Assembly: GCA_002842285.1 (NCBI GenBank)
Contig: PHCJ01000002.1
Coordinates: 1-64,000 of the forward strand
DNA length: 64,000 nucleotides
Reading direction: 5' to 3'
From: Betaproteobacteria bacterium HGW-Betaproteobacteria-22
GTDB lineage: Bacteria > Pseudomonadota > Gammaproteobacteria > Burkholderiales > Methylophilaceae
Part shown: positions 22,100 to 60,373 of the stretch, in pieces
How positions within the stretch are numbered: position 1 is the first letter of the stretch
Layout of the letters: every line of letters starts with the position of its first letter
Program-made: the position numbers and the translations under genes
Notes under the pieces: model-generated
Told to the model about the DNA's origin: nothing
Seen by the model: only the letters and a program-made list of their open reading frames with translations
The model's database searches: none

Positions 22100-22104
22100 T
22101 TTGT

Positions 22105-23166: not shown

Positions 23167-23167
23167 G

Positions 23168-44144: not shown

Positions 44145-46499
44145 TTAGTTTCTTAGCGCTGCATCAAAATTATTCTTTAGCAATTCTAGCAGGTTAGCGA
44201 TCGTTGAATCAGCATCGCTGTCTGTTAAAGTTTTTTGAGTATCGTGCATAAGTACTGATAATGCAAGGCTTTTTTTGTTTTCTGCAACACCTTTTCCTTG
44301 GTATAAATCAAACAAACTGACATCAGTCACCAGCGGAATATTGGCGTTTTTTATCGCATTTAACACTGCGGATGCGGTAACCTGCTGATCCAGCACAATT
44401 GCGATATCGCGACGTACGGGCAATAGTTTTGAAACTTCCTGATAACGTGGCAGTGGACGCTTTAACACAGCGTTAGCATCAAGTTCAAACAGGTAAGTAT
44501 TTTTTTGCAAACCATAGTGCTGTTGCCACCTCGGATGAAGCTTGCCTAAGTAACCAATGGCACTGTCACCAAGAAAAATACGTGCGGTTTGCCCAGGATG
44601 CAACGTAGCATGCGTGTCTTTTTCATAGCGCGCATGCGCGCCTAACAATCTGTCGACATGTGCTTTTACATCAAAAAAATCCACATCCACATTGCTCGCA
44701 GCCCATTGCTCAGGCCTTGCACTACCATAGGCCAAGCCGGAAATACGCGTTGATTCTTCAAATGCGCCAACTGCCTGTTGATACACCGCGCCTATTTCAA
44801 ACAAATAAGCACGGTCTTGCTTACGATTCAAGTTATAGCTCAGCGTGTCTAGTAAACCACCCCACAGGCTTGTACGCATCACACTCAGATTGCTCGCAAT
44901 CGGGTTTTTCAGGCGGATTGGCGCATGGTTACCCAACAGGTCGCGCTCCCAGCGCTCATCCACAAAGCTGTAGGTTACCACTTCCTGATAGCCGGCAGAA
45001 ACCAAACCGTCTCTAATCTTGTTTAGATGCAATTGCTGCTCAGGTGCCGCCAGCATCGTTAACTCAGCTACAGGCGGCGTTGCCGGAATATGGTCGTAGC
45101 CATGCAGACGTGCAACCTCCTCAATCAAGTCTTCTTCAATCGTGATATCAAAACGGTAGCTGGGTGGTGTCACTGTGAATACCGCATCAGCCGTACTGAA
45201 TGCAAAACCAAGCTGCGTTAGAAGCTGTGCTACTGCCTGTTCTTCAAAAGCTATACCCAATACAGACAGCAGCCTTGCCATTCTCAGTTTAACCGGATGT
45301 CGCACCGGTAAAGCGCCAGACACCTCAGTGATCGCACCAGCCTTGCCGCCGCAAATTTGCTGTATCAGTGTTGTCGCATACTCGATTGCATTGCGCGTAT
45401 TGCCAAAATCAACCCCGCGCTCAAAACGATAGGATGAGTCGGTGCTTAAACCCAGCCTGCGCGCTTTACCTGCAATCACTGACGGCACAAAGAATGCGCT
45501 CTCCAGGAAAACATCCGCAGTGCCCTCATCTACCGAAGTGGGTTTGCCACCCATAATGCCCGCCAAAGCAACAGCGCCTTGCGCATCCGCAATCACCAGA
45601 TCATCGGCTTTGAGTTCCACCGTCTGGTCATTCAACAAGCTTAACGCTTCGCCTGCTTTTGCATAGCGCACATTGATATCACCTGTGAGTTTGGCAGCAT
45701 CAAAGGCATGCAAAGGTTGCCCTAACTCAAGTAGCACGTAATTGGTGATATCCACTACCGCACTGATGCTGCGAAGCCCGCTACGCTCTAAACGCTTCAT
45801 CATCCAGGCCGGGGTAACCGCTTTTGCATTGATGCCGCTGACCAGGCGGCCACAGTAGCGTGGACAAGCCGCCGGCTCATTCACCGTAACATTCTTCGCT
45901 TCTGCCAACTCAACCGGAACAGGTGTAATCTTCGCAAAGTTTGTTACAGCACCAGTAATGGCGGCAACATCGCGGGCAATCCCTGTAATGCTTAAACAGT
46001 CACTGCGGTTCGGTGTCAGTTTCAGCGTGAATAAATGGTCATCCAGATCCAGATGCTCACGGATGCTCTGACCGACAACCGCACCACTGTCCAGCTCAAG
46101 CAGGCCTGTAGCCTCTGCGCTGATGCCCAGCTCTTTAGATGAGCACATCATGCCGAATGACTCAACGCCGCGTACTTTAGCCTGCTTGATCGAAATGCCC
46201 GGCAAATCGGCGCCCACCATCGCACAAGGTGCCAGCAGGCCTGCGCGCGCATTCGGCGCGCCACAGACAATCTGCAAAGGCTCAGCCAAACCGACATCTA
46301 CCTTACACACCTGCAAGCGGTCCGCATCAGGATGTTTCTCTGCGGACAGAATTTTCCCCACCACCACTTTACTAAATGGCGCGGCAACCTGCTGCATTTC
46401 TTCCACCTCAAGCCCGGCCATTGTCAAGGCGTGACTTAAAGCCTCGCTATCCAGGTTTGTATCAACTAAACTTCGTAACCAGTTTTCTGAGAATTGCAT
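44145..46499 (-). CDS. pheT: Phenylalanyl-tRNA synthetase beta subunit
   Basis: A 784-residue PheT. The EMAP-like tRNA-binding domain (KVVVGKILSAEKHPDADRLQVCKVDVG in part: VVVGKILSAEKHPDADRLQ) is at residues 40-150. The B3/B4 editing domain comes next, then B5 (YRFDITIEEDLIEEVARLHGY, here ITIEEDLIEEVARLHGY). The C-terminal FDX-ACB domain (SKLLPVRRDIAIVLDQQV) binds the tRNA anticodon stem. It forms the alpha2-beta2 enzyme with PheS and hydrolyses Tyr-tRNA-Phe. A 117-bp gap with a large inverted repeat separates it from pheS. Confidence 0.97.
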   Translation of the reverse strand: MQFSENWLRSLVDTNLDSEALSHALTMAGLEVEEMQQVAAPFSKVVVGKILSAEKHPDADRLQVCKVDVGLAEPLQIVCGAPNARAGLLAPCAMVGADLPGISIKQAKVRGVESFGMMCSSKELGISAEATGLLELDSGAVVGQSIREHLDLDDHLFTLKLTPNRSDCLSITGIARDVAAITGAVTNFAKITPVPVELAEAKNVTVNEPAACPRYCGRLVSGINAKAVTPAWMMKRLERSGLRSISAVVDITNYVLLELGQPLHAFDAAKLTGDINVRYAKAGEALSLLNDQTVELKADDLVIADAQGAVALAGIMGGKPTSVDEGTADVFLESAFFVPSVIAGKARRLGLSTDSSYRFERGVDFGNTRNAIEYATTLIQQICGGKAGAITEVSGALPVRHPVKLRMARLLSVLGIAFEEQAVAQLLTQLGFAFSTADAVFTVTPPSYRFDITIEEDLIEEVARLHGYDHIPATPPVAELTMLAAPEQQLHLNKIRDGLVSAGYQEVVTYSFVDERWERDLLGNHAPIRLKNPIASNLSVMRTSLWGGLLDTLSYNLNRKQDRAYLFEIGAVYQQAVGAFEESTRISGLAYGSARPEQWAASNVDVDFFDVKAHVDRLLGAHARYEKDTHATLHPGQTARIFLGDSAIGYLGKLHPRWQQHYGLQKNTYLFELDANAVLKRPLPRYQEVSKLLPVRRDIAIVLDQQVTASAVLNAIKNANIPLVTDVSLFDLYQGKGVAENKKSLALSVLMHDTQKTLTDSDADSTIANLLELLKNNFDAALRN

Positions 46500-46510
46500 A
46501 AAAATCCTTA

Positions 46511-46599
46511 AGCGGCAGATTATCGCGGATGTACGCAGATAAAAACTGGATACTTATTTCGTATTCAATATCTGCGTACATCCGCGTCTATCTGCGGCT
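46511..46599. repeat. Large inverted repeat between pheS and pheT
   Basis: Two 30-nt arms (46511-46540 and 46570-46599) pair at 26 positions, with a 29-nt loop. Each arm carries GCGGATGTACGCAGAT in its inner half and a GCGGCAGAT-like outer part. In mRNA this would be a very stable hairpin within the pheS-pheT transcript. Such GCGGAT-GCAGAT sequences resemble dispersed extragenic repeats of other proteobacteria. It might limit read-through or protect the pheS message. Confidence 0.75.
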
Positions 46600-46616
46600 A
46601 ATAAAAAAGTCCTGAT

Positions 46617-47636
<1,020 letters not shown>

Positions 47637-47714
47637 TTATAAATTAACCGGCAATAACCCGGATTTATTTCATAATGCTTTGATTTTGTGCAAAAAATCA
47701 AAAAGAGAATTTTA

Positions 47715-47746
47715 CCGCAAAAAAAAGAGGCCGAAGCCTCTTTTTT
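47715..47746 (-). terminator. Intrinsic terminator after rplT
   Basis: AAAAAAGAGGC-CGAA-GCCTCTTTTTT is a perfect hairpin with a tetraloop (UUCG on the rplT strand), flanked by A and T runs on each side. It lies 43 bp after the rplT stop and could work in either direction. Confidence 0.93.
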
Positions 47747-47789
47747 CGTTCAAACCTAGTAATAAGTCTGAAATTTTCAGCTTGACAAG

Positions 47790-48149
47790 TTATGCGCTCA
47801 AACCAGCTTTTGCTAATTCAACGAATTTTGCAAATGCCGCTTTATCGAACACAGCCAGGTCAGCCAATACTTTACGATCCACCTCGATCGCAGCTTTTTT
47901 CAAGCCATTCATGAAGCGGCTATATGTCAAGCCACACTCACGCGCACCGGCATTGATACGTGCAATCCACAATGTGCGGAATTGACGTTTCTTTTGACGG
48001 CGGTCACGGTAAGCGTACTGACCCGCTTTCATTACCGCTTGTTTGGCAACGCGGTAAACGTTTTTACGACGGCCACGATAGCCTTTAGCTGCTTTTAATA
48101 CTTTTTTGTGTCTAGCGCGAGCGATGACACCACGTTTTACTCTAGGCAT
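47790..48149 (-). CDS. rplT: 50S ribosomal protein L20
   Basis: A 119-residue L20 with the basic N-terminal extension ([25 protein letters not shown], quoted here as [18 protein letters not shown]) and the compact helical C-terminus ([14 protein letters not shown]). It binds 23S rRNA early in assembly. L20 represses its own operon in many bacteria by binding mRNA. It starts 9 bp after rpmI. Confidence 0.98.
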
Positions 48150-48158
48150 GTTTTACTC

Positions 48159-48356
48159 CTATTGTGTTGGCATCATAGCGCGGACGCGCTTGACATCAGT
48201 TGCAGAAATGATCGCCGTGCCGCGTAATTTACGCTTTTGCTTGGTGGTCTTTTTCGTTAGGATATGGCGCAAGTGAGAGTGCGTACGCTTCACTTTACCA
48301 TTACCCAAGAATTTGAAGCGCTTTTTAGCGCCACTCTTGGTTTTCATCTTTGGCAT
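48159..48356 (-). CDS. rpmI: 50S ribosomal protein L35
   Basis: A 65-residue, very basic L35 ([20 protein letters not shown] start). Its place between infC and rplT is the universal order. AAAGGAG precedes the ATG. The 124-nt gap to infC is where L20 autoregulatory structure lies in E. coli; no specific element was traced here. Confidence 0.98.
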
Positions 48357-48480
48357 TTTGTTCTCCTTTAGAGTTGTTTAAGAGTGCTTAGGCATGCCTT
48401 TTAGCCGTATCACTCAGGGGTACTACTACTTCACACTATTACTGCAGAATTTGCAGCAATACATGTTTTTATCAGAAAAC

Positions 48481-49005
48481 TTATTTAGCTTTCTTAATCG
48501 GGCCAAGCACCATTACCATCTGACGGCCTTCCATCTTGGGATACTGCTCAACCATTGCGTATTCTTTCAAATCAGCTTCCACACGTTTCAATAGCGCCAT
48601 ACCAAATTCCTGGTGTGTAATCTCACGCCCTCTGAAGCGCAAAGTGATTTTTGCCTTATCGCCATCCTGAATAAAGCGGATGATATTGCGCACTTTAATC
48701 GCATAATCACCATCATCGGTGCCGGGGCGGAATTTAATCTCTTTGACTACAACCTGCTTTTGCTTAAGCTTAACTTCATGCTGCCTTTTGCTTTCCGCAT
48801 ATTTAAACTTGCCATAATCCATCAACCTGCATACCGGAGGCGCTGCATTAGGTGCGATTTCAACAAGATCGATGTCTGCCTCTTCAGCCTTAGCAAACGC
48901 TTCGGCAAGAGACACAATGCCCAAAGGCTCACCCTCTATACCCACCAGACGAACCTGTGGCGCTGTAATATCGCCGTTAATTCGTGTTTCTTTATCCTGT
49001 GCTAT
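48481..49005 (-). CDS. infC: Translation initiation factor IF-3
   Basis: About 174 residues when started at an ATA codon (49003-49005). From there the frame reads [20 protein letters not shown], the normal IF-3 N-terminus, and no ATG, GTG or TTG stands in frame before a GTG 60 bases later that would delete this conserved part. GGAG lies 8 bp ahead of the ATA. IF-3 proofreads start codons and represses infC itself when its start is non-standard (AUU in E. coli). Other family blocks are [16 protein letters not shown] and [25 protein letters not shown] (given as [12 protein letters not shown]). Start assignment is inference from homology. Confidence 0.93.
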
Positions 49006-49070
49006 ATCAAATTCTCCAAATTAATCACGCGTGATGACGCTAAAATAGTTAAGCCGTGCACCTAAGTGGA

Positions 49071-50978
49071 TTAAACCTTAGCTTCAATCTCTGCTTTTAG
49101 GCGTTCAATCAACGCGCTAATCGGCATAGAACCTAGGTCTTCACCTTTTCTGGTACGCACGGCCAAATGTCCCGTCTGCATTTCACGCTCACCCGCCACT
49201 AGCAGGTAAGGCAATTTTTGCATGCTATGTTCGCGTATTTTATAGGTAATCTTCTCATTTCTCAAGTCAAATTCGCATCGAATACCATTTTTCTTCAAAG
49301 TTTCAACCACTTGGCGCACATAATCGGCTTGGTTTTCTGAAATATTCAACACCATGACCTGCACTGGTGCTAACCATAAAGGCATTGCGCCTGCGTAATG
49401 CTCGATTAGAATGCCGATAAAACGCTCCATTGAACCCACGATGGCACGGTGCAGCATCACAGGACGCTGACGTGAATTATCCTCGGCCACATACTCTGCA
49501 TCCAAACGCTCTGGCAGGTTAAAGTCTAGCTGGATCGTACCACATTGCCATAAACGGCCTAGGCTATCTTTTAATGTAAACTCAATTTTAGGGCCATAGA
49601 ATGCACCTTCACCCGGCTGCAAGTCAAATGCCAGGTTGTTTTTGTTAAGTGCATTTGCAAGCGCCGTTTCCGCTTTATCCCAGGTATCGTCTTTACCCAC
49701 GCGCTTCTCCGGACGGGTAGACAATTTCACCAGTACGTTATCAAAGCCAAAATTGCCATATACTTTGTATAACATCTGAATAAAATCAGCCACTTCCGCT
49801 TCGATTTGTGCTTCTGTACAGAAAATGTGTGCATCATCCTGCGTAAAACCACGCACACGCATCAAACCATGCAAGGAGCCGGATGGCTCATTACGGTGAC
49901 ACGAACCAAACTCAGCCAGACGCAAAGGCAAATCGCGGTAGCTATGCAAATCATGATTAAATATCTGCACATGCCCCGGACAGTTCATCGGCTTAACCGC
50001 GTAATCACGGTTTTCTGATGCGGTTACAAACATATTGTCACGATAGTTTTGCCAGTGACCGGACTTCTCCCACAAGGTCTTATCCATCACGGTAGGTGTG
50101 CGCACTTCCTGATAGTTATACTCCCTGAACATCTGGCGCATGTATTGCTCAACTTCCTGCCAGATGCTCCAGCCACGCGGATGCCAGAACACCATACCAG
50201 GCGCATCATCCTGCATGTGGAAGTAATCCAGTTGCTTGCCCAGTTTGCGGTGGTCGCGTTTCTCAGCTTCTTCCAACTGGAACAAATAGGCTTCCAACTC
50301 CTCTTTATTACGCCATGCAGTACCATACACGCGCTGCAACATCTCGTTATTGCTGTCACCGCGCCAGTACGCACCAGCCAACTTCATTAACTTAAACACC
50401 TTGAGCTTGCCTGTGTTGGGCACGTGCGGGCCGCGACAAAGGTCAGTAAAGTTGCCCTCGGTATAAAGCGAAACATCTTCACCTTCTGGAATTGCGCCTA
50501 TCAACTCAGCCTTGTAAGCTTCTCCGATGCTTTTGAAATACGCAATCGCCTCATCACGCGGCAGCACCTTACGGGTCACTGGCTCATCTCTTTTGGCTAA
50601 TTCTGCCATTTTCTTTTCGATGACAGCCAGGTCTTCAGGAGTAAAGGGACGCTTGTAGGAAAAGTCATAATAAAAGCCATTCTCAATTACAGGGCCTATC
50701 GTCACCTGTGCATCTGGGAACAACTCCTTGACCGCATAAGCCAGCAAGTGCGCGGTTGAATGGCGAATCACCTCCAGGCCTTCTGGCGATTTGTCCGTGA
50801 TAATCGCCAGATCACTGTCAGCTTCTATTAAAAAGCTTGTGTCAACCAACTTATCATTCACCTTGCCAGCCAAAGCTGCCTTGGCCAGGCCTGCGCCTAT
50901 ATTCATCGCAACCTCGGCCACGGTGACAGGCAAATCAAATTGACGTTGTGAACCATCTGGCAAGCGTATATTAGGCAT
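49071..50978 (-). CDS. thrS: Threonyl-tRNA synthetase
   Basis: A 635-residue ThrRS. The TGS domain ([21 protein letters not shown], noted as [19 protein letters not shown]) is followed by the editing domain with [17 protein letters not shown] and YCDF-type residues ([13 protein letters not shown]). The class II core has zinc ligands in [10 protein letters not shown] and later His residues. [15 protein letters not shown] is motif 2. The C-terminal anticodon domain ends with [12 protein letters not shown]. It is the first gene of thrS-infC-rpmI-rplT, with a 65-nt gap to infC. Confidence 0.98.
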
Positions 50979-51200
50979 TTTCTTCTCGCATCAAAACAAC
51001 AAAAGCCGCAAGCGGCTCATAATCAAGGTGCAGATTATCTCACAACGCATAGCGTCACTGCAATTTATTGCCAGCAACTAGCGTAAGAAATGGTGAGAAA
51101 AGTGGTTGATCAGGATAAAGTGCCCCGCAAGCCCAATACTGACCAATACGCCAAAGGCGTTTGGCTTGCGTAAACTGCGATAGTCCATATTATACGGCAA
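50979..51200 (-). promoter_or_regulatory. thrS upstream region with candidate promoter and hairpins
   Basis: On the minus strand a TATAAT occurs at 51194-51189, about 210 nt before thrS. Downstream of it AACGCC-TTT-GGCGT and AGCCGC-TT-GCGGCT form hairpins, the second ending about 23 nt before the start codon. In E. coli ThrRS represses its mRNA by binding tRNA-like leader hairpins; these structures are candidates for such control but no tRNA-Thr anticodon mimic was demonstrated. The -35 region is weak. Confidence 0.4.
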
Positions 51201-51519
51201 GCTTACCAGCACCTCGCAACTCAGCAATGCGTCGACGCAGATACGCAAAAAGCGCTTCCGTAAAAATAAATTAGTCTTGCTTGATATAAATTGAATAGGT
51301 TACATTAACCCTTTCGGGTGGTTTTTTTGGCTTTTACTTTAAAATGATTATACAAGAAGCCAACTCAATGCCCTGTAGCAGCGCAGATGCAAACCTAGAG
51401 ATAAGGCAATCAATATGCCAATAGTAAAAATCAACTCCGTGTCTCCAATCGATGACACATTCTCTACCAGCATCTTCACGAATAGCACCTATGTCACTGT
51501 TTTAGTTGACTAATAATTT
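51201..51519. other. Non-coding region upstream of the sigma-54 promoter
   Basis: No gene is visible. Two dyads face the sigma-54 promoter: GTGTC-N10-GACAC at 51439-51458 and GTCA-N10-TGAC at 51493-51510. They are the best candidates for an activator binding site, though the second lies unusually close to the promoter. A weak ACCC-GGGT hairpin with a T-run near 51308-51328 could be a weak terminator. Confidence 0.4.
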
Positions 51520-51536
51520 TTGGCACAAGTTTTGCT
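51520..51536 (+). promoter_or_regulatory. Sigma-54 (-24/-12) promoter
   Basis: TTGGCACAAGTTTTGCT matches the sigma-54 consensus TGGCAC-N5-TTGC, with the invariant GG and GC exactly 10 bp apart. A start of transcription near 51547 is predicted. The first large downstream gene is the BFD-reductase-cytochrome fusion at 51777, leaving a leader of about 230 nt. Expression would need an enhancer-binding activator; none is encoded in the window. Confidence 0.75.
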
Positions 51537-51776
51537 TAATCCTAACAAAGTGGCTTGCGACGCCATACATTTTTATCCATCACCTCAACTGTGAGCAATT
51601 GCCATGTTCAATACAAATCATCCTATCTCATATTTTTATTCATCACGTGTCTATTGGGCAGACCATGAAAAACTAAATCATTAAATTACGCCTGATTTCA
51701 GTGTTGCATAAATTCTAAGCAATCAAAACGAGCAAGTTATAACGAGTAAAACCAATTCAACAAGGCTACAAGATTA

Positions 51777-53354
51777 ATGTTAAAAGATAAAAAGTCCCGC
51801 TTCGTATGCGTTTGCGCGCGTGTAACAGAAGAAGATATTGCCCAGAAAGTCAACAACAATAAGTGCTCACTGCAGGAACTGCAACAGTCGCTGGGCTGCG
51901 GTATTGAATGCGGAAGTTGCGTACCCGAATTGCAGGAGATATTAGGTATCAAGGCATGGCATCCTGCATATGCTTTCTGCCGGATTGTGGAATGTACAAA
52001 ATCACTGAAAGATTCGTCCAGGTTTTTTGAAATCAAACTTTTTCCTGAAGATGTATCATCTTACCCAGACCCTGTACTGGGGCAAAACGTTATTATTCGC
52101 CTTACCGAAAATGATGGTCAGGCCATAGAACGCACTTACACGATTGTAGATTTTGACCCAATACTGCGCTCGCTAACCGTCATTGCTAAACACCGTGTTG
52201 ACGGTAAACTCACCCCAGTTTTTGCACAAAACGCTAGCAACGAATCCCCCCTTAAAATCGAGATTAGCGAACCAATAGGGGGCAGCTTGGTTGTTGCGGA
52301 ACAACAACCGATTGTGTTTTATGTAGCAGGGTCAGGCATCACTCCAGCGCTTGCATATCTGAGAAAATATACGGGCACTCATCCGATTTATCTGGACTAT
52401 AGCGCCAGCAGCCAAGAGGAGTTTTTATTTAAAGACTTCTTTGCTTCAATAAAAGAACAGTCTACCTCTTTTGATTACACATTAAGGGATACATCAATTT
52501 CAGGACGCATTGATGCTGACGATATATCGAAAACAGCCGCAAAGCATCCTAATGTACAGTATTTAATATGTGGCCCTGACGCTTATACGCAAATGGTATC
52601 CAATGTCTTGAGGCGCATGGACATCCCTGCTGCAAATATTCACGCAGAGGCTTTCTCAGTAGTGCATGCGCCACAGAAAAAAACATCTTCAATCAAGCAC
52701 TTTGCTTACGCAATGGCGCTTTTTATTAGCTTAATCCCCTTGCTTTTACTTTTTGACAAAACAGAGCATTATCGCCCGCACGGACAAGCCAACGTAGGTC
52801 ACGAAAAGCTGAAATGCGCAGCCTGCCATCAGGCATCTACGGGGTCATTCAGACAGCAAATACAAGCCAAGGTAGCTTACTTTCTGGGTAACAGAAAAAC
52901 CAACCCTCACTTTGGCAATAAACCAGTGAACACCAGAACTTGCATCGAGTGTCACGCCAACCCTGACGATCGCCACCCTGCGCAGAGGTTTCTGGAGCCG
53001 AAATATGAAGAAGCAAGGCAGACACTTGGTGCACATCAATGCATCAAATGCCATCGTGAGCACTCGAGACGCCGCGTCACATTGAGCGACACAAGTTTCT
53101 GTCTGCATTGCCATTCAAAAACCATCGTGAAGAACGATCCTACCGCACCAACACATCAATCTCTCATCAGAAACAAACAATGGAATAGCTGTTTGCAATG
53201 CCACGATTATCATGGGAATCATAAAGCAAAAATACCGATCAAGCTTGAGGATGCGCACAAAATCAATGCAATCAATGCTTATTTCAATCTAGCCAAGAAT
53301 CCATATGGCTCAGTGATATACAAGGCTAAACTACAAAAAAAGGATGAAAAATGA
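51777..53354 (+). CDS. Fusion: BFD [2Fe-2S] - FAD/NAD(P)H reductase - membrane helix - pentaheme cytochrome c
   Basis: A 525-residue fusion. Residues 11-48 form a BFD-type [2Fe-2S] domain (C11-x-C13 and C45-x2-C48). Residues about 75-298 form a ferredoxin-NAD(P)H reductase module: RTYT at 119-122 for FAD, GSGITPALAYLR at 185-196 for the nicotinamide, CGPDAYTQ at 265-272 and a final EAF at 291-293. A single helix spans about 309-327, preceded by basic residues, so the N-terminus should stay in the cytosol. The C-terminal part has five CxxCH motifs, at 347, 389, 422, 442 and 472, and should be periplasmic. The likely task is to move electrons from NAD(P)H outward, with help from the di-heme protein two genes on. 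The DUF3365 gene overlaps its stop. I know of no named family with this whole architecture. Confidence 0.9.
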   Translation: MLKDKKSRFVCVCARVTEEDIAQKVNNNKCSLQELQQSLGCGIECGSCVPELQEILGIKAWHPAYAFCRIVECTKSLKDSSRFFEIKLFPEDVSSYPDPVLGQNVIIRLTENDGQAIERTYTIVDFDPILRSLTVIAKHRVDGKLTPVFAQNASNESPLKIEISEPIGGSLVVAEQQPIVFYVAGSGITPALAYLRKYTGTHPIYLDYSASSQEEFLFKDFFASIKEQSTSFDYTLRDTSISGRIDADDISKTAAKHPNVQYLICGPDAYTQMVSNVLRRMDIPAANIHAEAFSVVHAPQKKTSSIKHFAYAMALFISLIPLLLLFDKTEHYRPHGQANVGHEKLKCAACHQASTGSFRQQIQAKVAYFLGNRKTNPHFGNKPVNTRTCIECHANPDDRHPAQRFLEPKYEEARQTLGAHQCIKCHREHSRRRVTLSDTSFCLHCHSKTIVKNDPTAPTHQSLIRNKQWNSCLQCHDYHGNHKAKIPIKLEDAHKINAINAYFNLAKNPYGSVIYKAKLQKKDEK

Positions 53355-54214
53355 GAATAATGGTCACCAATCTCAAATACTGGGTCGCAATACTGTGCCT
53401 GGCCGTGCTTGGCATCTATCTATTTGCCAGTGCGCCTGACAAGCTTCCTGACACCACTGGCGGGGGTAGCAGTATTATTTCTGCAGAAAAAGCGATTGCA
53501 ATACTCGCAGCAGAGCAAAGCGCCATCAGAGGTTTATATACTACGGAAATTGTAGCGGCAGGACTCAAAAGCGGACTCAAGTTCAGCGAGTTATGGAAAG
53601 ATGAAAATGTACATGCTGGGCCATTGCCAGCTCTATTGCTGAGAGAAACCTCCAATCGCATGTTCATTAAATCACCTGACTTGAGTTTTTTTCTGGGTTC
53701 AGATTATCCGATTGTAAAGGAAAATTTGTTTGATGCCGAGCAGATGAAACATTTTGACGAACTCAAACGCACAGGCAAGCCTGTTTTCTTCTACGACAAT
53801 AAGCTAAAACGGGTTGTAGGGATGTTTCCTGACTTTGCATCAGGCCAAGCTTGTGTCACTTGCCACAATGAGCATAAAACATCCCCAAAAAAGGATTGGA
53901 AACTGAACGATATCATGGGAGCGACCACATGGTCTTACACCGAAAGAAACATGAGCTCAGAAGACCTAGCGATTCTTATCAAGAATCTGCGGCAATCATC
54001 TTATGAGTCATATGCCGCATATATCGAAAAAGTAAAGAAATTCAATAAAAATGAAATGATCAAAATCGGAGAAAAATGGCCGTCAGAAGGTAAGCACTTG
54101 CCCGACGTAAGAACTTTTGAGCACGCGGTAGAAAAAAATAACTCTCGCAGAACCTTGACCAGTTTACTGTCAATTTACGACCAAAACAGCCAGATTGCTG
54201 AATTTGATAAATAA
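53351..54214 (+). CDS. DUF3365/Tll0287-like monoheme c-type protein
   Basis: A 287-residue protein with an N-terminal signal-anchor (residues about 8-28) and a periplasmic domain of the DUF3365 (Tll0287-like) type. One CxxCH (CVTCHNEH, about residue 172) binds a c-heme. LLRETSNRMFIKSPDL, FFYDNKLKRVVGMFPDF and GDIMGATTWSY-like text (DIMGATTWSYTE) are family-like. Related domains act as heme-based sensors or small redox modules. Here it follows the pentaheme fusion (start overlaps its stop as ATGA), so it is probably an electron acceptor or sensor of the same system. The C-terminal 80 residues are charged and not assigned. Confidence 0.85.
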   Translation: MRIMVTNLKYWVAILCLAVLGIYLFASAPDKLPDTTGGGSSIISAEKAIAILAAEQSAIRGLYTTEIVAAGLKSGLKFSELWKDENVHAGPLPALLLRETSNRMFIKSPDLSFFLGSDYPIVKENLFDAEQMKHFDELKRTGKPVFFYDNKLKRVVGMFPDFASGQACVTCHNEHKTSPKKDWKLNDIMGATTWSYTERNMSSEDLAILIKNLRQSSYESYAAYIEKVKKFNKNEMIKIGEKWPSEGKHLPDVRTFEHAVEKNNSRRTLTSLLSIYDQNSQIAEFDK

Positions 54215-54248
54215 ACTAATCAGACCACTTAATACGTTTCGGATTATT

Positions 54249-54755
54249 ATGCAGACACAACGCCAAAAAATCTATTTTCATCTATCTTGCACCGCCGCCA
54301 GCTTAGCTTTAATCCTTTACATAAGTCTTTTGATCATGCCAGCAAGCATGCGACTGCCTAACTACCCGAACTCGGATACCTTTATGCAAATTACAGGGTA
54401 TCTGCAACTTACCCTACTGCTAGCACTAGTTTCGTTCCACCCCATCAAGCAATCACTTTCCAGCAGTGTCAGCATGCTCAGTCTAAATATCATTCATGCA
54501 TTATTGGGCATGAGTTTTATGATGCTGAATATCTTTCACGTGACCAAACTACCCTCTGGATATTTGCTCATACTACATCTGGTATTACATTTAACTGTAA
54601 TATCTGGGGCTGGGTTGCTGGTACTTAAAAGCTACATTTCACCCCAACTGAGAAACATCACGCTCAACCTGCATATTGCATCGTCTTTTTTCACGTTAGC
54701 TGCTAGCTTAGTGCATATTTACTTCGTCTATGTCTACACCAGCACGGTGCAATAA
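54249..54755 (+). CDS. Five-helix membrane protein with two His-x13-His pairs (probable di-heme b)
   Basis: About 168 residues from the ATG at 54249; a TTG at 54195 would add 18 residues and overlap the previous gene. Five hydrophobic helices are evident. Helix 3 holds H-ALLGMSFMMLNIF-H and helix 5 holds H-IASSFFTLAASLV-H: each pair is 14 residues apart, the spacing that ligates two b-hemes in NOX and ferric-reductase membrane domains. Helix 4 adds two more His (LHLVLHL). I infer a di-heme cytochrome b carrying electrons across the membrane between the flavin module and the c-hemes of its neighbours. The TAA stop is formed by the first bases of the repeat element starting at 54753. Confidence 0.75.
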   Translation: MQTQRQKIYFHLSCTAASLALILYISLLIMPASMRLPNYPNSDTFMQITGYLQLTLLLALVSFHPIKQSLSSSVSMLSLNIIHALLGMSFMMLNIFHVTKLPSGYLLILHLVLHLTVISGAGLLVLKSYISPQLRNITLNLHIASSFFTLAASLVHIYFVYVYTSTVQ

Positions 54756-54903
54756 TCCCAGATTTTTTCATTAGGACTTGCAGTGGCTACGCTGCAAAGT
54801 TTGATGGGGTTTTTGTACATATTAATATGTACAAAAAAGACGCAAAATGGGTAAGTTGACATGCACGTAGAGGCAAAATCATCTAATAGAAAAACTCGGA
54901 TTA
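54753..54903. repeat. Small inverted-repeat element, copy Y
   Basis: Ends TAATCCCAGATTTTTTCATT and CTAATAGAAAAACTCGGATTA are inverted repeats of about 22 bp. Inside, TTTTTGTACAT-ATTAAT-ATGTACAAAAA includes a perfect 28-bp palindrome (54810-54837). AAAAAAGACGCA-AATGGG-AAGTTGACAT and AAAATC follow as in copy X1. The 151-bp element sits between convergent genes. Its left end gives the stop codon of the di-heme protein; its right end lies 9 bp from the stop of the PqqD-like gene. TA flanks both ends. Confidence 0.7.
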
Positions 54904-54911
54904 TGTCATCA

Positions 54912-55331
54912 TTACCTGCGGACAAAGATGGTAGATAAAAATGACAGTGGCGCCCCCAACTTGAGCATATAACCTGAGATGCTTTTTACAGCGTGCGAGG
55001 ATTTGGCGTTTGAATCGCTATCTAACTGCAACAAATCAAGTCCATATAATTGATCTAGCAATGCGATGACTTCCTGCTGAGTAACCGTGGTTGCGACCTT
55101 AGCACGCTGAATTTCATCCCATATATGCTGCACTGTATTTAAACCATTACATCTACCGATAAACTGGTATGCCGCGGTGTTGATAACTTGCTTATGGCGC
55201 GTGCTTGATTCTTTCAGTAAATAGCAGAACTCACCATGCTTGAATTCGCGGCTCACACTCACGGCAATGTTCAATTGCGGCTTTAAATGAGCGATACTAT
55301 TCCACTCGGCATTATAAGTTGTATGTGTCAT
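54912..55331 (-). CDS. Stand-alone PqqD-like (RRE) protein, probably truncated
   Basis: A 139-residue protein whose residues about 8-100 look like the PqqD-like winged-helix region at the N-terminus of large M50-type peptidase/transport proteins: WNSIAHLKPQL, GEFCYLLKESSTRHKQVINTAAYQFIGRCNG (noted as GEFCYLLKES and INTAAYQFIGRCNG), TVQHIWDEIQRA, and TQQEVIALLDQLYGLDLLQLD. In that family a large metalloprotease or membrane part follows a PLS-type block; here APLSFLSTIFVRR ends at a stop. It is therefore likely a truncated remnant, or a reduced RRE acting alone. TAAGGA precedes the ATG well, so translation seems intact. A palindrome lies 36 bp upstream. Confidence 0.65.
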   Translation of the reverse strand: MTHTTYNAEWNSIAHLKPQLNIAVSVSREFKHGEFCYLLKESSTRHKQVINTAAYQFIGRCNGLNTVQHIWDEIQRAKVATTVTQQEVIALLDQLYGLDLLQLDSDSNAKSSHAVKSISGYMLKLGAPLSFLSTIFVRR

Positions 55332-55641
55332 GCATTAATCCTTACATTACAAATCATGTCTACGTTACCAATTAAAATTGGTCCTACACAATGACAGCAA
55401 AACTCATACCAAATTAATAGTGCTTTATAATCAGAATGTTATGGAAAATTATCACATTTAACCTAGTGCATTAAGACAAAACATCGACAACATCATTCAA
55501 AAACTCATCAATACTGACAAAACCAAGCTTATTCTGGAAACAAAAAGACGTGCTTTATAAAGCATGGCTGACCTGATTCTCGTTTACCATACCTGCGTGT
55601 TCTACACCCACAAGACCAATCAAACCATCCTACGTAAACAA
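55332..55641. other. Intergenic region between pqqD-like gene and selO
   Basis: No gene is supported. A perfect palindrome (55367-55382) stands near the PqqD-like start. A short minus-strand frame just after selO (about 55556-55627) reads GLVGVEHAGMVNENQVSHAL before a stop; it looks protein-like but is too short to call. TGCTTTATAAAGCA (55550-55563) is another small palindrome. Confidence 0.4.
55367..55382. promoter_or_regulatory. Perfect 16-bp palindrome, candidate operator
   Basis: ACCAATTAAAATTGGT is a perfect palindrome 36 bp upstream of the PqqD-like start codon. Size and place suit a dimeric regulator site. No regulator can be named. Confidence 0.4.
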
Positions 55642-57126
55642 TCAAGTACCGCAGTATGTTTTATATTGCCGATCAAACACTTCGCCAGGTGGCTGCATGA
55701 AACGTGATGGGTGATCTAAATCCGTGTAAGGGTCAGCCAGAGCAGCTACCAATGTGTGAAACTGTGTGATATCCGCTTCATCCACTGCGGCCGCAAGCGC
55801 CTCTTCTACCAGATGATTACGCGGGATTACACTGGGGTTGGCTGAGCGTCTTAATTGTTTTGATTGATTTATATGCTCTTTTTGCCTGGCTAATCTCGCT
55901 TCCCATCGTCTAAGCCAGTGCTGAAAACCTGCATCCTGATACATCGCTTCGTGCATCTCTGCATCACCACCTAGCGCTCTGAAACCATTTGTAAAATCCA
56001 CTTGATGCTTCTGCATATACATCAGCAAATCTTCTGCCAGTTTCTGGTCTTCAGCTTCTTGATTGAATAGCCCAAGTTTCTTTCGCATGCCGGCTAGCCA
56101 ATAAGCGAAAAACTGCGCAGGAAAGGCATCCAAACATTCTGCTGCCAGAGTGATTGATTTTTTCTCCGAAACATCAATCAAAGGCAAGAGTGTTTCTGCA
56201 AACCTGATGAGATTCCAGTGTGCAACTTTTGGCTGACGACCGAATGCATACCGTCCATTCACATCCACAGAGCTAAATACCGTTTCAGGATGATAGATAT
56301 TGATAAATGCACATGGTCCATAGTCTATGGTTTCACCAGCAATGCTCATGTTATCGGTATTCATCACGCCATGCATAAACCCGACATTCATCCACTGCGC
56401 AATCAAGGATGCCTGTAAATCAACGACCCGTTCCAGCAATGCCAGATAGCGATGCTCCGCTTCAGCAATTTCCGGAAAATGCCGTAATATCGTATAGTCT
56501 GCCAAGGCTTGTAATTGCTGATTATTGTGCGTCACGGCTGCAAATTGAAATGTGCCAACACGTATATGACTTGAGGCCACACGCGTTAATACCGCCCCAG
56601 GCTGTATACCTTCGCGATACACAACTTCACCCGTATCAATTACCGCAAGACTTCTGGTTGTTGGAATCCCCAGTGCATGCATGGCTTCACTCATCAGGTA
56701 TTCTCGCATCATGGGACCTAGCGCCGCCCTGCCATCTCCTCTGCGCGAATATGGTGTACGACCTGCGCCCTTCAGCTGAATATCATAACGCTGATCATGC
56801 TGAGCGATATGCTCCCCCAACAGTATCGCACGACCATCGCCCAACATATTAAAGCCACCAAACTGGTGCCCTGCGTAGGCCTGTGCAATAGGTTCCGAGC
56901 CCGGGCAAATAGTATTGCCTGCCAGCAGCCAACCGCCCTTACGATTGAGCGCTTCAGCATCCAGATTAAGTGATGTGGCCAGTACATCATTCACTATCAC
57001 TATACGCGGATTTTTAACAGCTGTAGGTAACTGCCGTCGATAAAAAACCGGGGGCAATTGCAGATAACTGTTGTCGAAGTTAAAACCAAAACTTTCAGAG
57101 ATTAAAGCTTGTTCTAAACTCATCAT
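55642..57126 (-). CDS. selO: Protein adenylyltransferase SelO
   Basis: A 494-residue SelO/YdiU pseudokinase that attaches AMP to Ser, Thr or Tyr of target proteins, linked to redox stress (glutaredoxin is a known substrate in E. coli). Blocks are AYAGHQFGGFNMLGDGRAILLGE (shown as YAGHQFGGFNMLGDGRA), DIQLKGAGRTPYSRRGDGRAALG (shown as LKGAGRTPYSRRGDGRA), TDNMSIAGETIDYGPCAF and ANPSVIPRNHLVEEAL. The catalytic HGVMNTDNMSI and DYGPC metal site are intact. This is the non-selenocysteine bacterial form ending in YCGT. The start codon and ribosome-binding site lie in a strong hairpin. Confidence 0.96.
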   Translation of the reverse strand: MMSLEQALISESFGFNFDNSYLQLPPVFYRRQLPTAVKNPRIVIVNDVLATSLNLDAEALNRKGGWLLAGNTICPGSEPIAQAYAGHQFGGFNMLGDGRAILLGEHIAQHDQRYDIQLKGAGRTPYSRRGDGRAALGPMMREYLMSEAMHALGIPTTRSLAVIDTGEVVYREGIQPGAVLTRVASSHIRVGTFQFAAVTHNNQQLQALADYTILRHFPEIAEAEHRYLALLERVVDLQASLIAQWMNVGFMHGVMNTDNMSIAGETIDYGPCAFINIYHPETVFSSVDVNGRYAFGRQPKVAHWNLIRFAETLLPLIDVSEKKSITLAAECLDAFPAQFFAYWLAGMRKKLGLFNQEAEDQKLAEDLLMYMQKHQVDFTNGFRALGGDAEMHEAMYQDAGFQHWLRRWEARLARQKEHINQSKQLRRSANPSVIPRNHLVEEALAAAVDEADITQFHTLVAALADPYTDLDHPSRFMQPPGEVFDRQYKTYCGT

Positions 57127-57163
57127 GACTAATATCCTACCAAATTAGTAGGATATTAGTCAT
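57125..57163 (-). promoter_or_regulatory. Perfect 16-bp hairpin hiding the selO start
   Basis: ATGACTAATATCCTAC and its exact complement flank a 7-nt loop. On the selO strand the AGGA of the ribosome-binding site and the AU of the first start codon lie in the 3' arm. If the 5' arm is transcribed, initiation would be blocked until the hairpin opens. It could equally be a protein operator. Structure is seen; regulation is inference. Confidence 0.6.
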
Positions 57164-57280
57164 TTAGCACTAAATAAGCAATCTTTGCAGACTTGTGTAC
57201 AAGATAAGCCTCACTAGACATCACTAGAAATCAAATCGTCATACAGGTTGCATGTGTTTGAAGTAATAGTCAAAAGTTGA

Positions 57281-57457
57281 ACCTAGATTTTTCCATCATT
57301 AGGTAAAAACCTAATAAAAAGGGTAGTCTAGAGCGTTTATTTTGCACCAAAATTCCATGGTAACCTCATACCAACCTCACCCTGAACTCTATATAAATCA
57401 AAAGATTGCTCAAATGATTTCCAGTAGAAATTGCTGCTAATGGATAACCTGGGATTA
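57281..57457. repeat. Small inverted-repeat element, copy Z
   Basis: Ends ACCTAGATTTTTCCATCATT and CTGCTAATGGATAACCTGGG (then ATTA) are imperfect inverted repeats. The interior matches 35143-35308 (AAGGGTAGTCTAGAG, AACCTCAT, ATAAATCAAAAG, TTGCTC, GCTGCTAATG). No coding frame is inside. It lies between selO and tRNA-Val in a 398-bp gap that otherwise holds only the selO hairpin and the tRNA terminator. Confidence 0.6.
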
Positions 57458-57479
57458 ATGGCTGCGATTTGGGTACGGT

Positions 57480-57514
57480 ATGAAAAAGTAAAGGGCTAGC
57501 ATTTAGCTAACCCC
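57480..57514 (-). terminator. Intrinsic terminator after tRNA-Val
   Basis: On the minus strand GGGTTAGC and GCTAGCCC pair (one G-U) around a short loop, then TTTACTTTTTC. It follows the tRNA 3' end by about 11 bp. Confidence 0.8.
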
Positions 57515-57524
57515 TTGATAAATT

Positions 57525-57601
57525 TGGTAGGCAGTACCAGATTCGAACTGGTGACCTCTTGGATGTCGACCAAGCGCTCTAACCAACTGAGCTAACCGCC
57601 T
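57525..57601 (-). tRNA. tRNA-Val (anticodon GAC)
   Basis: 77 nt with encoded CCA. Acceptor AGGCGGT pairs with ACTGCCT. The D arm GCTC...GAGC, anticodon stem CTTGG/CCAAG with loop TCGACAT, variable AGGTC, and T arm ACCAG-TTCGAAT-CTGGT are complete. GAC reads GUC and GUU. Confidence 0.96.
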
Positions 57602-57690
57602 TGAAATTCCCGTCAAATTTTGTACTGCAATATTTAACAGAACGCGATTTTAGCTGATTGTGACCGTTGGCGCAAACCAAACGCTCAAAA

Positions 57691-58956
57691 TCAGTATGAT
57701 AATTCCGCACCAACAAGCTCCATCACTTGCGGCAACAAGCTTTCGTACAAGCTGGGGCTTGCGTAGCCGTCGGCAGGCAAATGTCTAGAGCGCTGATACG
57801 CACGCACTGCAGACTGCGTTTTTAGGCCGGGCAACCCATCAGGTATGCCCGCATCAAAACCAAGGGTGTTAAGGGCATGTTGCAGATGCAACATTTGCTG
57901 ATAAGTTAAGGCGCCTTGCTCAGCGTGTTTTCCACCCACTAAGCGCGGCTCACCTTTGAGCCGTTTAGCCAACTGTGCTACCGACAGTGCGTAATTGACA
58001 GACCGGTTCCAATCAAGAATCACATCAAAATTACCAAACACCATAAAAGCTGGCCCTAACGCCCCTTGTGGTAGTATGATGGCCGCCTCCGAGTCAGTCT
58101 CAGGTAGCCCAGCTAAAAACTGCACCCCTTTGCCTGCACCGGACGCATCGCTGCCGCCAACAGCGGCTTTAACCCCTGACTGCGCCCAGTCTAAGGTAGA
58201 TTTCCGTAATGTCAGCTGTGCACTTTGCCAATCAAAATCAGGCGGTAGCTCGACTTCCAGCATGACAGGCTGTTTTGCATGCCACCCAACACGTGCAAGA
58301 TAGTTGGCAGCAGAGGCAAACGCATCGGCTAACGAACCAGCCACATCCACACGTCCGTCGCCATCGCCGTCCACTGCATAAAACATAAAGGTAGTTGGCA
58401 TAAACTGCATATTGCCAAACGCACCTGCCCACGACCCTTTAAAGCGATCAATACTGACATGCCCTAAATCCACCATACGCATGGCATCCAGCAACTGGCT
58501 CCTAAAAAAATCTGCCCTACGCCCCTCAAAGGCCAGCGTTGCTAATGTAGACAGCACATCAATCTTGCCTTGATAAGCACCGTACTGTGTTTCCATCCCC
58601 CAAAATGCAACCAAGGTGTATTTGGATACGCCATACTGCGCTTCAATCGCATCGAACAGTGCACTATGCGTCTGCAATAGCGCGCGTCCCTTTTGAATTT
58701 TTTTTGCATCTACACGTTTTAAATAATACTCAATAAAAGGGCTCACAAACTCAGGCTGAGCCCTATCAAGCTTAATGGTGTTGGGTAAAAATGCTATTTG
58801 GTTAACGACCACATCAGCGACTTGATCTGATATTCCCTGCTGCCTGGCTTCATGTCTTAGGTCGGCCAACCACAGGGCGAAAGCATCTTGGGCCGCGGCA
58901 GGGCGGGCAAGTATGGAAGCGATAAAAATTAAGCCATAAGAGAGTAATTGACGCAT
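57691..58956 (-). CDS. mltB: MltB-like lytic murein transglycosylase with peptidoglycan-binding domain
   Basis: A 421-residue exported enzyme. A signal peptide (residues 1-22, LLSYGLIFIASILARPAAAQ) leads into an SLT_2 (MltB) domain at about 27-320. The catalytic Glu lies in VAFWGMETQYGAYQGK. GAFGNMQFMPTTFM and AVDGDGDGRVDV follow. A PG_binding_1 domain at about 355-410 (LQHALNTLGFDAGIPDGLPG) ends the protein. No lipobox is seen, so it is probably periplasmic. It cleaves glycan strands to 1,6-anhydro products. It starts 3 bp after the SDR gene stop. Confidence 0.94.
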   Translation of the reverse strand: MRQLLSYGLIFIASILARPAAAQDAFALWLADLRHEARQQGISDQVADVVVNQIAFLPNTIKLDRAQPEFVSPFIEYYLKRVDAKKIQKGRALLQTHSALFDAIEAQYGVSKYTLVAFWGMETQYGAYQGKIDVLSTLATLAFEGRRADFFRSQLLDAMRMVDLGHVSIDRFKGSWAGAFGNMQFMPTTFMFYAVDGDGDGRVDVAGSLADAFASAANYLARVGWHAKQPVMLEVELPPDFDWQSAQLTLRKSTLDWAQSGVKAAVGGSDASGAGKGVQFLAGLPETDSEAAIILPQGALGPAFMVFGNFDVILDWNRSVNYALSVAQLAKRLKGEPRLVGGKHAEQGALTYQQMLHLQHALNTLGFDAGIPDGLPGLKTQSAVRAYQRSRHLPADGYASPSLYESLLPQVMELVGAELSY

Positions 58957-58959
58957 GAT

Positions 58960-59823
58960 TTAACTAGAAGATAGATTTTCGAGTATCCTTTTATAGCCCG
59001 TCTGATAATCAGGATACTGCAACTTAAAGCCTGTTGCCAGCATCGCGGCATTACTTAAGCGCTTGCCTCCAGACACAGTTATCAACTCAGGCTCGTTGAG
59101 ATTTAAATAGCTAGCAATCCAGGCAATGACTTCAAGCTGAGGCACGGGTGCAGAGTCTGTCACAATATAGCAATTGGCAGGTAAAGTACCCTGCAAAAGC
59201 ATCTCAATTAAAAACACAACAAAAGCAGCGGCATCATCACGATGAATCCTATTGCTCCAGTTATTCTGCGCTGGCCATACCCCAGTTTTTGCCAGATTAA
59301 TCATGCGCAATCTGCCTGGCCCATATATGCCAGATAAGCGCAGCACTGTGGATGAAACAGATAGTTCATTGAGCACAGACTCTGCCTCAAGCAAGCGAAC
59401 ACCACCAAAATCATCCGGATTGGGCACTGAATCAACGTCTAAAATCTCAGTGTCAGTTTCTGCATTACCCCGGCCATAAACCCGCGTGCTGGAAACAAAA
59501 AACACATGTTGCAAATGCACGTTATCACGCTGTGTTGCTAGTACGTTGCGTAGGCCATCAACATATGCCGCCTGATACGCCGCATCGGTCTGCCCGTCAG
59601 CAGAAACACAGTACACGATAATTTGCGGCTTGATTGTCGCAAGTTTCGATAAAGTCTCGGGCTGTGTAACATCTGCGTGTATCAAGTCCACATTAGGCGT
59701 GTTTTTTAAACTTCTTGAAACCCCATAAATGGGGATATGCAACTGGTTTAGTCCGTTTGCAATCGCGCCACCTAAATCGCCAAAACCGACAATCAGCACA
59801 CTACTTAATAATGCATCAGCCAT
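58960..59823 (-). CDS. NAD-dependent epimerase/SDR family protein (YeeZ-like)
   Basis: A 287-residue extended-type Rossmann protein. The nucleotide motif LIVGFGDLGGAIANGL is at residues 11-26. HVFFVSSTRVYGRGN contains the Ser and Tyr region, though a clear YxxxK is not obvious. LRLSGIYGPGRLRM is the substrate-side block. It resembles YeeZ-like sugar epimerase relatives of unknown substrate. The start overlaps the end of the NUDIX gene by 8 bp. Confidence 0.85.
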   Translation of the reverse strand: MADALLSSVLIVGFGDLGGAIANGLNQLHIPIYGVSRSLKNTPNVDLIHADVTQPETLSKLATIKPQIIVYCVSADGQTDAAYQAAYVDGLRNVLATQRDNVHLQHVFFVSSTRVYGRGNAETDTEILDVDSVPNPDDFGGVRLLEAESVLNELSVSSTVLRLSGIYGPGRLRMINLAKTGVWPAQNNWSNRIHRDDAAAFVVFLIEMLLQGTLPANCYIVTDSAPVPQLEVIAWIASYLNLNEPELITVSGGKRLSNAAMLATGFKLQYPDYQTGYKRILENLSSS

Positions 59824-60373
59824 ATTGCGCTAAATATTTTTCAGCCAAAAATAAGGCATTGATGGTTTTTCCATCTGTAATCTCACCCGACTGAATCTTA
59901 TCAATACACATAGGCAGGCTCAGGTCAAATACTTGCAGCATTTCATCTTCATCACGCTGATGCATGCCTGCGCATAAACCTCGCGCGAGATAAATGTGGA
60001 TAATCTCATCCGAATAGCCAATGCAAGGGTGCTGCAAACCAAGCTTAACCCACTCGGTCGCGGTGTATCCTGTTTCCTCCTGCAGCTCGCGCTGACCGGT
60101 GAGCAGCACATCTTCATTCGCATCTATCTTCCCTGCCGGCAACTCGATGAATGTCTGATGCAAAGCGTAACGATATTGTTTTTCCAATACGACATGGCCG
60201 TTTGTTAATATTGGCACTACGACAACGGCGCCGGGATGTATCACATACTCACGATGACTAGTGCGTCCATTCGGCAAACTTACCAAATCACGTTTGATAG
60301 TAAGCATGTTGCCTGATACAAGCGTTTCTGAACTTAAACAATGTTCGGTTAAATCTTCGGCGTCATACTGCAT
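59816..60373 (-). CDS. NUDIX hydrolase (ADP-ribose pyrophosphatase-like)
   Basis: A 185-residue NUDIX protein. The complete Nudix box runs G-KIDAN-E-DVLLTGQ-REL-Q-EE-TGY in residues about 78-100. RYALHQTFIELPAGK before it is typical of ADP-ribose pyrophosphatases (NudF/NudE-like). It would split ADP-ribose or a related sugar nucleotide to AMP. It is first in NUDIX-SDR-mltB, preceded by a 118-bp gap to DUF2818. Confidence 0.92.
   Translation of the reverse strand: MQYDAEDLTEHCLSSETLVSGNMLTIKRDLVSLPNGRTSHREYVIHPGAVVVVPILTNGHVVLEKQYRYALHQTFIELPAGKIDANEDVLLTGQRELQEETGYTATEWVKLGLQHPCIGYSDEIIHIYLARGLCAGMHQRDEDEMLQVFDLSLPMCIDKIQSGEITDGKTINALFLAEKYLAQYG

Follow-up and report, generated by a model that had tools for sequence, protein, structure and literature searches.

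Proteins of the NOX/ferric reductase superfamily, such as SpNOX, take electrons from a cytosolic FNR-type NAD(P)H/FAD donor and pass them outward over two bis-His b hemes held by His pairs in helices 3 and 5 (PMC5676040). In the MsrQ/Fre system, a separate flavin reductase and a membrane heme protein serve the periplasmic reductase MsrP (PMC5676040). CbcL of Geobacter, of the quinol oxidase/quinone reductase class, joins a membrane di-heme b part to nine periplasmic c hemes within one polypeptide (PMC6295460). Here we describe an operon of three genes, A, B, and C, that shares features with each of these systems. It lies in a stretch of 64,000 nt (the window: positions 1 to 64,000, forward strand, of contig PHCJ01000002.1, GCA_002842285.1, Betaproteobacteria bacterium HGW-Betaproteobacteria-22). 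An earlier note, made from the letters of this DNA, had read the three genes as a path from NAD(P)H to periplasmic hemes. Domains, motifs, and recurrence support that path, and we recast C as its membrane wire. We put at roughly 60% the probability that the three proteins work as a single inner-membrane complex, or as a tight pathway, in which NAD(P)H is spent on the reduction of a target in the periplasm.

A three-gene set found in two phyla

A served as query in a pattern-based scan that covered one genome for each species; the scan was seeded by six short patterns and was not exhaustive. It returned 11 relatives: five Ramlibacter/Comamonadaceae records, 38–44% identical over the full length or as far as the contig reaches, and six Bacteroidota records whose best segments lie in the heme part (34–43% identical). 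Profile searches with B yielded further loci, one of them on a Flammeovirga plasmid. In the 24 loci chosen by a match to A or B, hidden Markov models run on six-frame translations grouped the pentaheme domain of A, B, and C on the same strand in 23; of these associations, only that with C is free of selection. The exception, L026, is a contig that ends soon after A. The earlier note had proposed looking for the same three genes elsewhere, and they are indeed found in 22 loci besides the window, in Proteobacteria and Bacteroidota. This recurrence, with the invariance of His and Cys residues described below, rules out chance or mis-called open reading frames. The open reading frame lists that we read show no other gene common to all loci.

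The reductase part varies. The FNR domain lies in A's frame in 19 of the 24 loci and in another frame in two; it was not found in three and never occurs in C. Among the 23 three-gene loci, FNR and pentaheme share one frame in 18, with L028 as a further case whose frame is broken. Three arrangements carry an iron-sulfur input. A begins with the BFD Cys pattern CxC...CxxC in all six window/Ramlibacter-type loci with an intact N-terminus (the Pfam test for BFD covered the window and L021). In Bacteroidota, wherever A is fused or its frame is broken (13 of 13 loci), FNR is followed by plant-type Fer2, recognized by its C-x4-C-x2-C pattern in 12 of these loci and by Pfam in L067. On plasmid p1 of Flammeovirga kamogawensis (L054), FNR-Fer2 and pentaheme are separate adjacent genes, a Rosetta-stone split, in the order hemA, globin, B, C, FNR-Fer2, pentaheme. 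In three other loci (L051, L052, and L069, presumably Alphaproteobacteria, judging from a "same phylum" relation), a small protein carries the pentaheme and has a hydrophobic stretch at its N-terminus. The core is pentaheme, B, and C, and the reductase part is an exchangeable add-on.

The operon family is rare and patchy. In a sample of 399 genomes of the same order, only the host's own genome carried it; four other matches were partial (E 3e-25 to 3e-22). Two of 395 genomes in a Bacteroidota sample matched, the query genome and one weak partial match. These four B-like matches and the one from the Bacteroidota sample were set aside as other Tll0287-like proteins. In the genus of G460, a Ramlibacter paludis genome, 6 of 60 genomes had matches, and further samples gave 2/198, 3/299, 2/198, and 8/180; each count includes the own or centre genome. 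When 101 relatives (51 of the same genus, own included) were searched with A, the longest outside match covered 251 of 525 residues. The partial matches were rejected as other genes: BFD-region matches lay mostly in frames of ~900 aa, NirB-like in look, and the others were FNR parts in unrelated frames or ~80 heme-part residues in frames of ~530–570 aa. Such a distribution would fit horizontal spread.

Trees of the pentaheme (n = 24), B (n = 22), and C (n = 23) show broadly similar main groups, with L054 and L067 shifting at low support. The concatenated tree (n = 22) groups the window with six Ramlibacter-type loci (support 100), the three small-pentaheme loci (support 100), and the Bacteroidota (support 81). 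L026 has neither B nor C at its contig edge, the frame-broken L028 was omitted from the B alignment, and the nearly identical L029 and L031 were both counted. In L028, a metagenome-assembled genome, A and B (1294-3880) are both broken by a frameshift or stop, reflecting assembly error or decay.

Features of the three proteins

Coordinates, frames, and domain make-up of the three genes, as given in the earlier note, were borne out by Pfam, motifs, and hydropathy (Table 1). In A, Fer2_BFD scores 34.5 bits (cut-off 26) and NAD_binding_1 scores 23.1 (cut-off 22). The FAD subdomain stays under the Pfam cut-off, as it does in L021 (19.1 versus 21.1 bits). Three FNR parts from Bacteroidota (L029, L054, L067) were tested as well, and in all of them FAD_binding_6 exceeds its cut-off (37.7–48.1 bits). 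The translation of A also holds RTYT, GSGITP, and CGP, which we take to be FNR-type motifs.

The note had further placed a membrane-spanning helix of A at residues 309–327 and a five-CxxCH domain in the periplasm. A has one strongly hydrophobic stretch at almost the same place, and a structure model that is otherwise poor shows a helix there. Three Lys lie immediately N-terminal to it and a net-neutral stretch immediately C-terminal, which fits an N-in/C-out orientation. The CxxCH motifs begin at residues 347, 389, 422, 442, and 472. All five, and six further His, are invariant in 24/24 aligned sequences (mean identity 45%), so that the His count would suffice for five bis-His hemes. Heme c maturation places c-type hemes in the periplasm, and a periplasmic location of the five hemes is therefore implied. 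Among frames of at least 80 aa, none but the pentaheme carries two or more CxxCH motifs in any of the 24 loci, and no second multiheme frame was found across the whole window. The NrfB-like pentaheme profile PF22678 stayed below its cut-off in window A (14.6 versus 27 bits). Against PDB sequences the pentaheme profile gave 10 matches (E 0.0006–0.006): one ammonia-forming nitrite reductase, seven octaheme nitrite reductase entries, a sixteen-heme cytochrome, and a putative multiheme cytochrome. We took these to reflect common CxxCH patterns only, though a distant kinship with that superfamily may exist.

B belongs to the sCache_heme/Tll0287 family by its Pfam score (PF11845, 34.8 bits, cut-off 24.1) and its single CxxCH, conserved in 22/22 aligned sequences; it is the only PF11845 match in the host genome. 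B is conserved as strongly as the pentaheme (mean identity 45%). Beyond CxxCH, W82, M158, H175, W183, W194, and W243 are invariant. Tll0287 and a P. putida protein use Cys/His heme ligation, unlike B, which resembles the P. azotoformans sCache_heme domain, a high-affinity NO binder, in having no such Cys (PMC12889525). In all 22 B sequences, Cys outside CxxCH occurs only in or near the N-terminal helix or leader (trimmed positions 12–41), and an axial Cys was judged missing from this absence of any Cys, without alignment to Tll0287. The Flammeovirga B carries a lipobox-like Cys. A search for PDB sequence relatives of B gave one chance-level match, and one relative used as a bridge to Tll0287 also failed. 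No Cys ligand is conserved for the B heme, and it would be the only one in the system whose second ligand is not assured, which makes it the likely reactive end. The mention of an Idiomarina DUF3365 protein in the accessible literature is a table entry only.

C has no significant match in Pfam, NCBIfam, or PHROGs. Ferric_reduct (PF01794) does not match window C and reaches 11.0 and 11.6 bits, versus a cut-off of 28, in two relatives. The model of C has five helices (mean predicted local distance difference test score, pLDDT, 89), with H101 and H115 in helix 91–115 and H160 and H174 in helix 150–185. Across 23 sequences with a mean identity of 26% (minimum 13%), the only invariant residues are these four His and G67 (trimmed numbering). 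Spacing within both pairs is 14 in 23/23, with 37–52 residues between the pairs. The "NOX-like heme spacing" of the earlier note thus holds exactly, with one H-x13-H pair in helix 3 and another in helix 5, the positions described for NOX (PMC5676040). C probably binds two b hemes. In VIA-align comparisons, the model aligned with di-heme b proteins, among them the designed protein 4D2 (Z 11.2, root-mean-square deviation 2.6, 105 residues aligned), cytochrome b of the S. pombe III2-IV1 supercomplex (Z 10.1, 3.1, 126), cytochrome b561 (Z 9.7, 2.9, 123), and the S. pneumoniae NADPH oxidase (Z 9.2, 5.4, 125).

The stop of A and the start of B share 4 bases (ATGA), an overlap that suggests a single transcript with coupled translation. 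B and C overlap by 20 bases with the TTG start for C; the alternative is an ATG at residue 19. The operon is flanked on one side by thrS (minus strand; identified by its translation) and on the other by a small PqqD-like open reading frame (54912-55331, minus strand; PqqD similarity 15.8 versus a cut-off of 23.4 bits, NCBIfam none), which could be the remnant of a peptide-modification gene. Elsewhere in the window, an arsenic cluster (21626-23632, minus strand) holds an ArsC-like gene under its cut-off and, both over theirs, an ACR3 arsenite efflux transporter and an ArsI/CadI family enzyme.

Table 1. Features of the operon in the window; the last two rows concern related loci, with positions in those loci
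Feature	Position	Strand	Basis
Gene A, 525 aa: BFD, FNR reductase, membrane helix, pentaheme	51777..53354	+	Pfam, CxxCH motifs, hydropathy, alignment
BFD-like [2Fe-2S] domain of A, residues 10-56	51804..51944	+	PF04324; CxC...CxxC (C11, C13, C45, C48)
FNR-type FAD and NAD(P) domain of A, residues about 77-295	52005..52661	+	PF00175; family HMM
Single membrane helix of A, residues 308-326	52698..52754	+	Kyte-Doolittle hydropathy 2.14; model helix 308-324
Predicted periplasmic pentaheme domain of A, residues 330-525	52764..53351	+	5 CxxCH and six further invariant His, 24/24
Gene B, 287 aa: membrane-anchored Tll0287/DUF3365 (sCache_heme) monoheme protein	53351..54214	+	PF11845, alignment
N-terminal membrane anchor of B, residues 10-28	53378..53434	+	Hydropathy 2.13
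CxxCH heme c site of B, residues 168-172	53852..53866	+	Sole conserved Cys motif in family
Gene C, 186 aa: five-helix protein, probable di-heme b	54195..54755	+	TTG start; ATG at 54249 possible
First H-x13-H pair of C (H101, H115), helix 3	54495..54539	+	23/23
Second H-x13-H pair of C (H160, H174), helix 5	54672..54716	+	23/23
Hemerythrin-like genes upstream of A	L021 7520-7924; L022 1186-1587; L023 7501-7899; L024 7511-7912; L049 5236-5634		
Loci with an Alginate_exp-like barrel	L026, L027, L028, L030, L065, L066, L067, L068		

Proposed electron path and its alternatives

We propose that, in the cytosolic half of A, hydride from NAD(P)H would reduce FAD and then the [2Fe-2S] cluster, which would split the electron pair into single electrons. 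These would pass to the cytosol-side b heme of C and on to its periplasm-side heme; because a single helix cannot carry electrons and that of A serves as an anchor, the part of transmembrane wire must fall to C. From there the five presumed bis-His c hemes of A would collect and relay the electrons to the heme of B, which would present them to a periplasmic molecule, perhaps a small oxidant such as nitric oxide (NO), peroxide, or O2. Outward flow of this kind would consume membrane potential, as in NOX, rather than store it, so that a protective or housekeeping role appears likelier than respiration or energy conservation.

We favour chemistry on NO, peroxide, or O2 because the B heme is possibly open and because some loci have neighbours of kinds that bind O2 or NO. 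An HHE hemerythrin-like gene lies directly upstream of A in 5/5 Ramlibacter-type loci with upstream sequence, and globin and hemA lie directly upstream of B, C, FNR-Fer2, and pentaheme in L054 (10087-15253). The heme synthesis gene hemA there stands beside a heme-rich system. As a side observation, two open reading frames upstream of the operon in L067 (1606-2730, minus strand), with one CxxCH each, resemble, from the list of frames, a split di-heme peroxidase.

Several results weigh against the NAD(P)H-driven path or against its proposed end point. No FNR was found in the 16–18 kb fetched around each of the three small-pentaheme loci, and NAD(P)H therefore does not act as donor throughout the family. 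In the A of L021, NAD_binding_1 scores under its cut-off (14.2 versus 22 bits). The pentaheme model is poor (pLDDT 50). For C, Foldseek returned nothing at E ≤ 0.001, and the best VIA-align rows are unrelated helical bundles, for example talin (Z 12.0); since these outscore the di-heme b proteins, the fold match does not decide the matter by itself. In B, either M158 or H175, both invariant, might act as second ligand and close the heme. A Cys-ligated stand-alone sCache_heme protein and its C59A variant both bind NO weakly, so a missing Cys alone makes no tight NO site, and the same source proposes redox roles for stand-alone sCache_heme proteins (PMC12889525). Within positions 45000-60000 of the window no hemerythrin or globin was found (globin by the list of open reading frames). 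Among the host genomes, nirK occurs in 4/23 (three over cut-off) and nosZ in 3/23, Flammeovirga standing outside the count; these figures speak against a link to denitrification, nirS and norB not having been searched. The window's host has a nosZ propeller match over cut-off (C39:49287-49499) and no match for nirK, the Cu nitrite reductase. The best FNR/DNR-like site in 18 upstream stretches has one mismatch (L031), a score reached by 15 of 200 shuffles, and none lies upstream of the window operon. With nirK and nosZ not tracking the operon and no clear FNR-like box, we rejected an NO/denitrification link.

The small-pentaheme loci also bear on an account that we regard as rather unlikely, in which C is a quinol dehydrogenase cytochrome b of the HydC/FdnI type, the quinol pool reduces the pentaheme and B, and FNR is an extra input in some lineages. 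All three have pentaheme, B, and C without FNR in the 16–18 kb, in favour of this account. The C of L069 shows weak b561 similarity (Ni_hydr_CYTB, 19.3 versus 30.1 bits), DUF4405 reaches 14.3–23.2 versus 26.7 bits in C of L051, L052, and L069, and CbcL likewise unites a HydC/FdnI-like b part with c hemes (PMC6295460). However, the usual fusion of FNR to the pentaheme, and its adjoining position in L054, fit direct input, and beyond G67 and the four His no quinone-site residues are conserved in C. It is improbable, in our judgement, that B is a sensor or regulator whose Cache heme reads NO or the redox state and gates or reports on a conduit feeding another periplasmic acceptor. A Cys-lacking, HAMP-linked sCache_heme protein does bind NO like known sensors (PMC12889525), and the sensor domains of GSU0582 and GSU0935, with His/water or His/Met ligation, bind NO and shift ligation with redox state (PMC8396549). 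Yet B lacks an output domain in the cytoplasm and has a single anchor, at its N-terminus; its conservation equals that of the pentaheme, and no other gene accompanies the set in all loci.

That the system reduces metals or sends electrons out of the cell by way of an outer-membrane barrel seems very improbable. This account would draw on the Alginate_exp-like barrel present in 8/14 Bacteroidota loci, six of the eight having it between A and B. The barrel was not found in the six other Bacteroidota or the 10 proteobacterial loci, its family is the porin family PF13372/PF07396, not MtrB, and no locus offers a second multiheme frame. With no outer-membrane partner common to the loci, the metal acceptor that the earlier note listed as an option is counted against.

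Comparison with described systems

We found no account of the three-gene set in open-access papers; subscription papers lay outside the search, so its absence from the literature is unproven. This agrees with the earlier note, which knew of no named system of this kind. The parts are known, and the combination and its modular input are apparently new as far as tested. The closest NCBIfam scores of the FNR parts go to PaaE/flavohemoglobin-type reductases, yet far under curated cut-offs: the window FNR scores best with the reductase part of flavohemoprotein (54 versus 432 bits), and the Flammeovirga FNR-Fer2 with PaaE (279 versus 420.8 bits). The window BFD shows NirB-type similarity. Unlike those reductases, FNR here is mostly fused to a membrane helix and pentaheme. 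The available part of PMC12889525 describes stand-alone, signalling-fused, and cytochrome-fused sCache_heme proteins and mentions no operon, pentaheme, or di-heme b partner.

It is possible, if doubtful, that the sCache heme of B performs catalysis rather than sensing and that the operon represents a new class of periplasmic heme reductase, tethered to the membrane and driven by NAD(P)H. If so, the operon would be an outward-facing counterpart of flavohemoglobin, with varied flavin/iron-sulfur inputs plugged into a common core by lineage. Stand-alone sCache_heme proteins, for which a 2026 preprint only suggests a redox role (PMC12889525), would gain a concrete electron donor and an operon. A complete NAD(P)H-to-periplasm path, apparently unnamed, would then be legible from sequence alone in two phyla, and the swap of inputs (BFD-FNR, FNR-Fer2, separate, none) clearly illustrates how the entry of electrons can evolve in modules.

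Each of the described systems matches part of this arrangement. NOX proteins have six membrane helices, whereas the model of C has five, and their dehydrogenase is fused C-terminally to the heme b domain, whereas window C ends after helix 5; we do not class the operon as NOX because these two features are lacking. Here, moreover, donor and membrane parts lie on separate chains, with an extra [2Fe-2S] cluster, five c hemes, and a Cache heme. Compared with MsrQ/Fre, the reductase is tethered, no molybdopterin partner was seen in the operon, and a heme c wire and the sCache_heme protein would replace MsrP. For CbcL, the available part of the source leaves FNR, Fe-S, and Cache heme unmentioned (PMC6295460). 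MtrCAB-type conduits combine an outer-membrane barrel with a surface multiheme cytochrome; the window shows neither a second multiheme frame nor, within 45000-60000, an Alginate_exp-like barrel, MtrB itself not having been searched for. By analogy, the operon may act like a split NOX, or like MsrQ/Fre with a heme c extension.

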